Shown: piece by piece, positions 50,809-52,275 of the stretch
Layout of the letters: the number at the start of each line of letters is the position of its first letter
How positions within the stretch are numbered: position 1 is the stretch's first letter
Assembly: GCA_025054935.1 (NCBI GenBank)
Contig: JANWZD010000010.1
Location: 62,001 to 126,000, forward strand
Source of the DNA: Dehalococcoidia bacterium
Lineage (GTDB): Bacteria; Chloroflexota; Dehalococcoidia; SpSt-223
Length of the DNA stretch: 64,000 bases
Direction: 5' to 3'
Notes under the pieces: generated by a model
What the model was told of the DNA's origin: nothing
What the model saw: the letters and a program-made list of their open reading frames with translations, nothing else
Database searches by the model: none
Program-made: the position numbers and the translations under genes

Positions 50809-51063
50809 ATGCAGCCCACAACGCACGAACCGCGGGTCGTTGACGAAGCGATCAAGATCATCCAGGAGCACCTTGACCGCGAGGCGCGCAACCGCCGGCA
50901 AACGACCCTCGAACCGAAGGATCTCTGCCCGATGCAGAAGGCGCGGCTCGTCAGTGACCTTATCGCGACGCTCGACACCTCGAGCGGTGGGTCTGGGTTG
51001 ACGCGAGCGGTGCGCTCCGCCTGGAACAGCCTTGTGAGCAGCTTCCGGGGACGATCGCGCTAG
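50809..51063 (+). CDS. Small protein of unknown function with strong promoter
   Basis: An 84-aa soluble protein, ATG 50809 with SD AGGAGG. Contains VVDEAIKIIQEHLDREARNRRQTTLEPKDLCPMQKARLVSDLIATLDTS and a basic Ser-rich tail (NSLVSSFRGRSR). No family recognised. Ends exactly before the moaE stop (convergent). The consensus promoter and structured leader suggest an abundant or regulated product. Confidence 0.6.
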   Translation: MQPTTHEPRVVDEAIKIIQEHLDREARNRRQTTLEPKDLCPMQKARLVSDLIATLDTSSGGSGLTRAVRSAWNSLVSSFRGRSR

Positions 51064-51489
51064 CTACTCCCCTTCGATCCACTCCTCGCCGTCCTCGGCG
51101 ACTTCTTTCTTCCAAATCGGCACCCGCTGCTTGATCGCATCGATGACAAACCGACAGGCAGCAAACGCCTCGGCGCGGTGCGCCGAAGCGGCCGCGATCG
51201 AGACACTCACCTCGCCGATCTCGAGCCGCCCGGTGCGGTGGATTGCTCTCACTTCTGTCTCGGGCCAGCGCTCCCGTGCCTCCGCGAGGATAGCAGCGAT
51301 CTGCCGGTCGGCCATCTCAGGATACGCTTCGTATTCGAGATACCGGATGCGCTTCCCCCGGGAATAGCCGCGCACAACCCCATCAAAGGTGACGACTGCC
51401 CCGTGCTCCGGAGCAGCAAGCCCTGCCGCCAAGGCAGCAGCAGAGATCGGCTCACGCGTGATATGGCGCAAGCGGTCAGTCAGTGTCAT
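51064..51489 (-). CDS. moaE: Molybdopterin synthase catalytic subunit
   Basis: A 141-aa MoaE protein. GAVVTFDGVVRGYSRGKRIRYLEYEAYPEMADRQIAAI and the C-terminal AFAACRFVIDAIKQRVPIWKKEV (conserved Lys residues) are typical; the RVPIWKKE segment holds the active site that receives the MoaD thiocarboxylate. Its start lies inside moaD (14-nt overlap), so translation is coupled. Confidence 0.93.
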   Translation of the reverse strand: MTLTDRLRHITREPISAAALAAGLAAPEHGAVVTFDGVVRGYSRGKRIRYLEYEAYPEMADRQIAAILAEARERWPETEVRAIHRTGRLEIGEVSVSIAAASAHRAEAFAACRFVIDAIKQRVPIWKKEVAEDGEEWIEGE

Positions 51490-51745
51490 CGGTCAGCTCC
51501 GCGCCGCCGCTGACCGGCGGCAAGATCGCAAGCTCCGCTCCATCAAAAAGCGGGCGTTCCGGCGAGGCATACTCGCCGTCAACCGCGAGCCGCGAAATTG
51601 CGGCAAAGCGGCGCAGCGCAGGGTACTCGCGCACCAGCGCTTCCACCGCCTCTCCGGCCGTTGTGCCCGCCGGCAGTTCAAGAAGCGCTGTCGGCGCGCC
51701 CACTGCCTCCCGCGCGCCCGCAAAGAGCCGCACTGTCACTCGCAT
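51476..51745 (-). CDS. moaD: MoaD sulfur-carrier subunit of molybdopterin synthase, extended C-terminus
   Basis: An 89-aa ubiquitin-fold protein (VRLFAGAREAVGAPTALLELPAGTTAGEAVEALV; LAVDGEYASPERPLFDGAELAILPPVSGG). The Gly-Gly that should be the C-terminus is followed by AELTDDTD because the stop lies inside moaE. A MoaD with this tail needs cleavage or an alternative end before MoeB/ThiF-type adenylation. ATG 51745 sits 6 nt behind TAGACT (leaderless). Confidence 0.88.
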   Translation of the reverse strand: MRVTVRLFAGAREAVGAPTALLELPAGTTAGEAVEALVREYPALRRFAAISRLAVDGEYASPERPLFDGAELAILPPVSGGAELTDDTD

Positions 51746-51813: not shown

Positions 51814-52275
51814 GTGACGGAGCGGCGAGACCGGGGCGTAAGTCGGCGCATCGAGCAGGAGATCGAGGAGATCCTCGCGAAAGCTGGCGATCTTGGCGAG
51901 GAGCCCGCGCCGTCGCGTTCCTTTGCGAGTTCCTCCCGCGCGTCTCATGACACGAGAAAATGGACCCCCGGAGCGTCTCGCGCCACCTCATTCTGGGGTC
52001 GGCTGAGCGGGACGAGCCGGCTGATGCTTCTCGCGATCATCTTCACCATCGCGGCCTACATCGCCTACTATCGCGCTCCGCTTCTCGGCATCCTGTGCAC
52101 GCTTGTCGCCGTCGGCTGCTTCATCAGCGCCTACCTCATCGCCTTTCGCGGTCCGCGCTACCTCGACAGAGAGCGCCGCTGGCGCGGGCAGCCGATCGAC
52201 TACGGCGACCCTCCCGGCGGCTCCCTGTTCCTGGCGGTGCGCCGCTGGTGGAGCCGCCTGACCCGCCGCTGGTGA
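51814..52275 (+). CDS. Small membrane protein of unknown function
   Basis: A 153-aa protein. A charged N-terminal 60 residues (IEQEIEEILAKAGDLGEEPAPSRSFA) precede two helices (LMLLAIIFTIAAYIAYY and LLGILCTLVAVGCFISAYLIA) and an Arg/Trp-rich end (GPRYLDRERRWRGQPIDYG, RRWWSRLTRRW). GTG start at 51814 next to a clear -10. Its 3' half is overlapped antisense by the reading frame from 52788. Codon pattern is normal. Function unknown. Confidence 0.6.
   Translation: MTERRDRGVSRRIEQEIEEILAKAGDLGEEPAPSRSFASSSRASHDTRKWTPGASRATSFWGRLSGTSRLMLLAIIFTIAAYIAYYRAPLLGILCTLVAVGCFISAYLIAFRGPRYLDRERRWRGQPIDYGDPPGGSLFLAVRRWWSRLTRRW

Follow-up and report, generated by a model that had tools for sequence, protein, structure and literature searches.

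The window (the whole 64,000-nt stretch that was analysed) carries a moaD gene without a stop codon after its Gly-Gly codons, so that the open reading frame runs 14 nt into moaE and the predicted MoaD bears eight residues beyond its expected mature C-terminus. Most likely, this tail is a by-product of the gene overlap and is trimmed by the JAMM metalloprotease encoded in the same genome, a reading that we consider probable; we infer that the tail is translated, that it is removed and that JAMM is the protease removing it. The following features of the window are relevant here:

51476..51745, minus strand: moaD (89 aa), MPT synthase small subunit (ORF; Pfam ThiS; NCBIfam)
51503..51508, minus strand: Gly-Gly codons GGC GGC, expected mature C-terminus (profile end at residue 81)
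51479..51502, minus strand: tail codons, AELTDDTD (from the sequence)
51478-51476, minus strand: moaD stop TGA, within moaE
51497..51500, minus strand: GGAG, likely Shine-Dalgarno sequence of moaE, in the tail codons, 7 nt 5' of ATG
51476..51489, minus strand: 14-nt overlap of the moaD end with the moaE start, in different frames
51064..51489, minus strand: moaE (141 aa), MPT synthase large subunit (Pfam MoaE, 4e-39)

The predicted MoaD ends in ...ILPPVSGGAELTDDTD, with eight residues following Gly80-Gly81 (SGG-AELTDDTD). The Pfam profile ThiS (PF02597) covered residues 5-81 (1.2e-14), that is, up to the second Gly with the tail outside, and the solved chains of MoaD2, SAMP1 and MoaD aligned with the window MoaD up to the last Gly. 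Among its three NCBIfam matches, TIGR01682 (moaD) scored highest, with 61.6 bits just below the cut-off of 66.15. The protein thus has the ThiS/MoaD fold and is encoded next to moaE, while it lies below the equivalog cut-off and its product does not end in Gly-Gly. A single MoaD-MoaE polypeptide of the MoaX type is not encoded, as the two frames differ and moaE has its own start. This moaE was the only MoaE match of the genome at E <= 1e-8 in the profile search, and MoaC was found in the genome as well. The ORF coordinates and Pfam matches bore out the sequence-only reading, which had proposed a MoaD tailed by its 14-nt run into moaE. The tailed precedents that it named were less fortunate: CysO terminates at Gly-Gly, the substrate of Mec being the CysO cysteine adduct, and the last residue of SAMP1 (3po0_A, 89 residues) aligns with Gly81, so that this carrier looks untailed.

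The genus sample consisted of three genomes, which were also everything that the order search covered. In the congener G001, moaD and moaE occur in the same order, with 61% (MoaD) and 74% (MoaE) identity to the proteins of the window. Its junction reads AGC GGA GGG TAA GCCG ATG, with the moaD stop directly after the Gly-Gly codons. The GGAGG inside these codons is the likely ribosome-binding site of moaE, and the spacing from Gly-Gly to the moaE ATG is 7 nt, compared to 13 nt in the window. In the other congener (G002, 80% complete), the profile search gave no moaE match. Since the moaD of G001 ends at Gly-Gly, the tail is not conserved in the genus. Of the traits expected of a JAMM-matured carrier, residues after Gly-Gly were found, and the genome also encodes a JAMM whose catalytic motif is intact, whereas the tail is not kept in the sole congener with a moaD-moaE pair, where MoaD is flush (ending at Gly-Gly). 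This congener has a JAMM in addition to its flush MoaD, indicating that JAMM permits tails without requiring them. A relative with a stop after GG had been named beforehand as grounds for rejecting a processed tail; the one found in the genus indeed speaks against a conserved propeptide, but it does not count as an argument against trimming in the window. A conserved propeptide was ruled out, as the congener is tail-less and the tail residues are the moaE start read in another frame.

Tails on MoaD and whole fusions are common among relatives. MoaE was present in 230 of 294 class genomes, and 178 of these 230 were read, with JAMM-lacking genomes deliberately oversampled. Genomes were scored as JAMM+ when the best PF14464 match had E <= 1e-10; weaker matches (by eye, probably RadC) were scored as JAMM-, as were nine genomes among the rows of the PF14464 survey without a match. 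In 44 of the 178 class genomes, the moaD next to moaE had a tail of 1-12 residues. In the 121 JAMM+ genomes, the moaD beside moaE was flush in 27 cases, carried a tail of 1-12 residues in 42 and a longer one in 6, and was fused in 46. The 57 JAMM- genomes comprised 5 flush, 2 short-tailed, 1 long-tailed and 4 fused cases, and in 45 no MoaD was detected beside MoaE. A set of 80 loci from many phyla (one of them from G001) contained 44 fused, 19 flush, 5 short-tailed and 6 long-tailed cases, together with 6 loci that showed no MoaD beside MoaE. At six Thermus loci (L071, L073, L077, L080, L083, L088), MoaD and MoaE form one open frame with the junction SGG-QDS.

Among class genomes with separate genes, the moaD stop lay inside moaE in 40 of 44 short-tailed versus 6 of 32 flush cases, and in 43 of 44 short-tailed pairs the two genes were read in different frames. 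For instance, the tails SDAV, SRAV and AHAV of one family (f59) correspond to a frame-shifted reading of the moaE start ATG or GTG-CTG-TTT-GAG; the start GTG-CTG-TTT-GAG, read in the other frame, gives ...AV and then a stop. A moaD without its own stop thus acquires a short tail if it is out of frame with moaE, and becomes a MoaD-MoaE fusion if it is in frame. We also considered whether a Shine-Dalgarno sequence within the Gly codons brings about the tails. Such a cause is unsupported: flush genes (37 of 51, class and other loci) showed a Shine-Dalgarno-like string over these codons at least as often as short-tailed ones (28 of 49).

A Mec+/JAMM protease, for which the sequence-only reading had proposed to search the genome, was indeed found: a JAMM with an intact motif is encoded next to the only E1 found. 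The PF14464 search hit two places in the genome, this JAMM and a second one (4.8e-5) that by eye resembles RadC. The corresponding features are:

G000:C1:360807-361133: JAMM candidate (PF14464 match, 3.2e-21)
G000:C1:359307-363802 (L001/L007): cysteine synthase - ThiS::MoeB - JAMM cluster (cysteine synthase and Rrf2-like genes named by eye)

The motif E...HSHx7Sx2D was present in all 29 class JAMM rows, including that of the window's genome (some rows are one gene at two loci), and the JAMM alignment showed 20 invariant columns among 24 sequences. An AlphaFold model of the JAMM (mean pLDDT 87) had 2kks and P. furiosus JAMM1, with SAMP2 and alone, as its best solved neighbours. The profile Desampylase (NF041370) scored 66.2 bits against a cut-off of 130, suggesting a related protein outside this family. 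Directly upstream of JAMM, after the cysteine synthase gene, lies a ThiS::MoeB fusion of 378 aa (ThiS-type carrier plus MoeB), which represents the only E1 above cut-off in this genome (96.8% complete) and gave no rhodanese match. The Rrf2-like gene lies upstream in the same cluster. JAMM and moaD are located on different contigs.

Seven ThiS-family carriers were detected in the window's genome: one flush ThiS-like carrier (GGG), five with tails of 2, 5, 6, 8 and 11 residues, and the E1 fusion. Hence six of the seven have residues after GG, and only the ThiS-like one is flush. An eighth ThiS-family match (L010) resembles, by eye, the TGS part of a Rel-type protein. The sole E1 found, itself made behind a Gly-Gly, would have to serve all carriers. 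One of the tailed carriers (L008, G000:C16) ends in VGG-ALTCS, and a carrier of the congener G002 (L013, G002:C1) ends in VGG-ARQCA. Both are MoaD/ThiS-like, neither is encoded beside moaE, and their five-residue tails share a Cys at the same position in the two congeners.

We then compared carrier ends with the presence of JAMM. Of 248 carriers, 242 were counted; four without GG and two cut at a contig end were left out. For 30 genomes, carriers were taken among the matches listed (30 loci and 60 regions were read, some with several genes), and 16 of the 32 JAMM- genomes searched for carriers had a match. A family was scored as JAMM+ when at least one of its sampled genomes was JAMM+. Among the matches listed, 138 of 193 carriers were non-flush in JAMM+ genomes versus 15 of 49 in JAMM- genomes (Fisher 2.7e-7), and with genomes at least 90% complete the corresponding values were 99 of 150 and 10 of 43. 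At the level of families, again among the matches listed, 46 of 49 JAMM+ versus 1 of 10 JAMM- families had any non-flush carrier. When moaD beside moaE was considered alone, 94 of 121 were non-flush in JAMM+ and 7 of 12 in JAMM- genomes (p = 0.16; 57 of 80 versus 2 of 6, p = 0.07, in genomes at least 90% complete). An independent-pair test on a FastTree tree of MoaE from the 178 genomes, 146 of which had both traits, yielded 8 supported pairs (3 strict), too few independent contrasts, with a median p of 1, so that the association with JAMM may reflect few shared ancestries. The link between non-flush carriers and JAMM presence is therefore suggestive, not proven.

Fourteen of the 15 non-flush JAMM- carriers, among the matches listed, came from eight genomes whose families otherwise have JAMM. 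Five of these eight are less than 90% complete, including G289, in which the end of a contig carries a partial JAMM match; in G168, another of the eight, the contig ends inside the fusion gene. The fifteenth carrier has a single Ala after GG (genome G108). The remaining two of the eight, G140 (94% complete) and G211 (90%), stand as exceptions on present data: they keep a carrier-E1 fusion, and PF14464 found no JAMM in either; G211 additionally has a MoaD-MoaE fusion. Either JAMM is missing from these assemblies, or the two genomes are a natural test of the JAMM requirement. Both G140 (L355) and G211 (L354) also encode tailed carriers together with cysteine synthase genes (named by eye).

These observations can be explained by a sequence of steps. 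Without a stop after its Gly-Gly codons, moaD runs 14 nt into moaE, where it terminates at the first out-of-frame stop. The eight tail residues would then be a by-product of an overlap that also holds the likely ribosome-binding site of moaE. The resulting pro-MoaD would be unusable by E1 until a JAMM metalloprotease cuts after Gly81, and the likely cutter is the JAMM at G000:C1:360807-361133, which adjoins the only E1 found. It is conceivable, with the prospects a little short of even, that JAMM is a general maturase of nearly all carriers of the lineage, including the E1-fused one, while stops drift and moaD slides between flush, tailed and fused states. In this case, carrier stop codons would be free to drift, since JAMM would generate the correct C-terminus post-translationally, and the Gly-Gly codons (often GGA GGN) would double as the moaE ribosome-binding site.

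In the pairs QbsE/QbsD and HcyS/HcyD, a JAMM protease removes the one or two residues that follow GG in a sulfur carrier; these pairs belong to siderophore and methionine pathways and do not involve MoaD. JAMM trimming of MoaD-type carriers is likewise known in principle. As described in the excerpted text of PMC8832034, DRJAMM (DR0402) cuts the MoaD-MoaE fusion DR2607 in Deinococcus radiodurans. The window MoaD resembles DR2607 as a bacterial MoaD that would need a JAMM cut after Gly before working. In contrast to DR2607, in which MoaD and MoaE form one chain, it is a separate protein whose short tail comes from a different reading frame. In Haloferax volcanii, HvJAMM1 cleaves SAMP1-MoaE precisely behind the C-terminal Gly, thereby restoring active MPT synthase; this archaeal fusion is artificial, samp1 and moaE being separate genes there, and the excerpted text of PMC4443979 lists Chloroflexi among bacteria with Ubl-MoaE fusions. 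MoaX of Mycobacterium tuberculosis, which differs from the window MoaD in being a fusion, requires a cut between Gly82 and Ser83 for activity, and the protease is not identified in the excerpted text of PMC4326299. With cleavage published for MoaX, the Deinococcus MoaD-MoaE and SAMP1-MoaE (PMC4326299, PMC8832034, PMC4443979), the earlier suggestion that MoaD processing would be new could not be maintained. The accompanying argument that the tail must go before activation is sound, in agreement with E. coli deletion, insertion and substitution data cited in the excerpts of PMC4326299.

The gene cluster also has a counterpart. Iyer et al. 2006 described a type 4c operon (ThiS/MoaD - E1 - JAB - cysteine synthase) with Chloroflexus included, and suggested that fused ThiS or MoaD is freed by JAB (PMC1779556, excerpted text). 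The cysteine synthase - ThiS::MoeB - JAMM cluster resembles this operon; the type 4c E1 is described there as fused to rhodanese, whereas in the window's genome E1 is fused to a carrier and moaD lies outside the cluster. In Thermus, a JAMM mutant had altered TtuB conjugates, according to excerpts of PMC3980101. No title or abstract opening in our literature searches dealt with short MoaD tails. If our reading holds, the novelty would at most lie in the short out-of-frame tail of a MoaD encoded separately, and in the place of such a MoaD on a series from flush end to fusion.

Could the tail be removed by another peptidase, i.e., a carboxypeptidase, a processing protease or a rhodanese-linked enzyme, with JAMM acting only on the cysteine-synthase carriers and the carrier-E1 fusion? 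The JAMM gene indeed lies in the cysteine synthase - ThiS::MoeB cluster away from moaD, G211 combines a MoaD-MoaE fusion with no JAMM found by PF14464, and the MoaX case is compatible with such an enzyme. We nevertheless regard this as unlikely, as one JAMM for all carriers is simplest when one E1 was found for all of them, and as hardly any carrier of the JAMM-lacking families is non-flush; among the apparent exceptions, G168 and G289 are affected by contig ends. It is highly unlikely that the tail stays, leaving MoaD inactive or marginal while a different carrier feeds MoaE. Although the genome offers seven carriers, including the flush ThiS-like one that needs no trimming, moaD is intact, adjoins the only moaE found and has kept Gly-Gly and its family match; MoaC is present, and the other MoaD-/SAMP1-like carriers are likewise tailed or fused.

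A regulated propeptide, in which pro-MoaD is kept inactive and JAMM activity gates cofactor synthesis, would fit the reactivation of MPT synthase by JAMM in Haloferax and the joint rise of the Deinococcus JAMM and its substrate under oxidative stress (excerpts of PMC4443979 and PMC8832034). Its prospects appear very slim, because the tail varies in the class, is absent in the congener and is dictated by the moaE start sequence. Finally, an assembly or sequencing error masking a true stop after GG, which the sequence-only reading had named as a refutation, is hardly credible despite the draft state of the genome (93 contigs) and the congener's stop after GG. We altered single bases in silico (456 substitutions, insertions and deletions, between 30 nt upstream and 27 nt downstream of the Gly-Gly codons), and not one change placed the end exactly at SGG (the nearest outcome was SGG-A, 2 of 456). 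Moreover, the 13 nt from GG to ATG versus 7 nt in the congener call for several changes, and short tails recur across the class.

If tailed MoaD is indeed matured by JAMM, ends of MoaD-type carriers that resemble annotation errors would be pro-forms. The protease, known mostly for deconjugation, would then perform a housekeeping step in cofactor synthesis in much of a bacterial class. The frequent origin of MoaD-MoaE fusions would also have a simple reason, and loss of JAMM would be predicted to force carriers to end at Gly-Gly.

Two further genes flank the pair. At 50809-51063 (plus strand), a gene for an 84-aa protein is convergent with moaE. The protein matched neither Pfam nor NCBIfam profiles at E <= 0.001, and its congener counterpart (L012:2180-2458, minus strand) is 85% identical over 81 residues, exceeding the 61% of MoaD. 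Adjoining moaD, the gene at 51814-52275 (plus strand) encodes a small protein that is predicted, by eye, to be of membrane type (MTERRDRGVSRR...). Searches against Pfam and NCBIfam were likewise negative at E <= 0.001, and a look-alike occupies the same place in the congener (L012:954-1403, minus strand).
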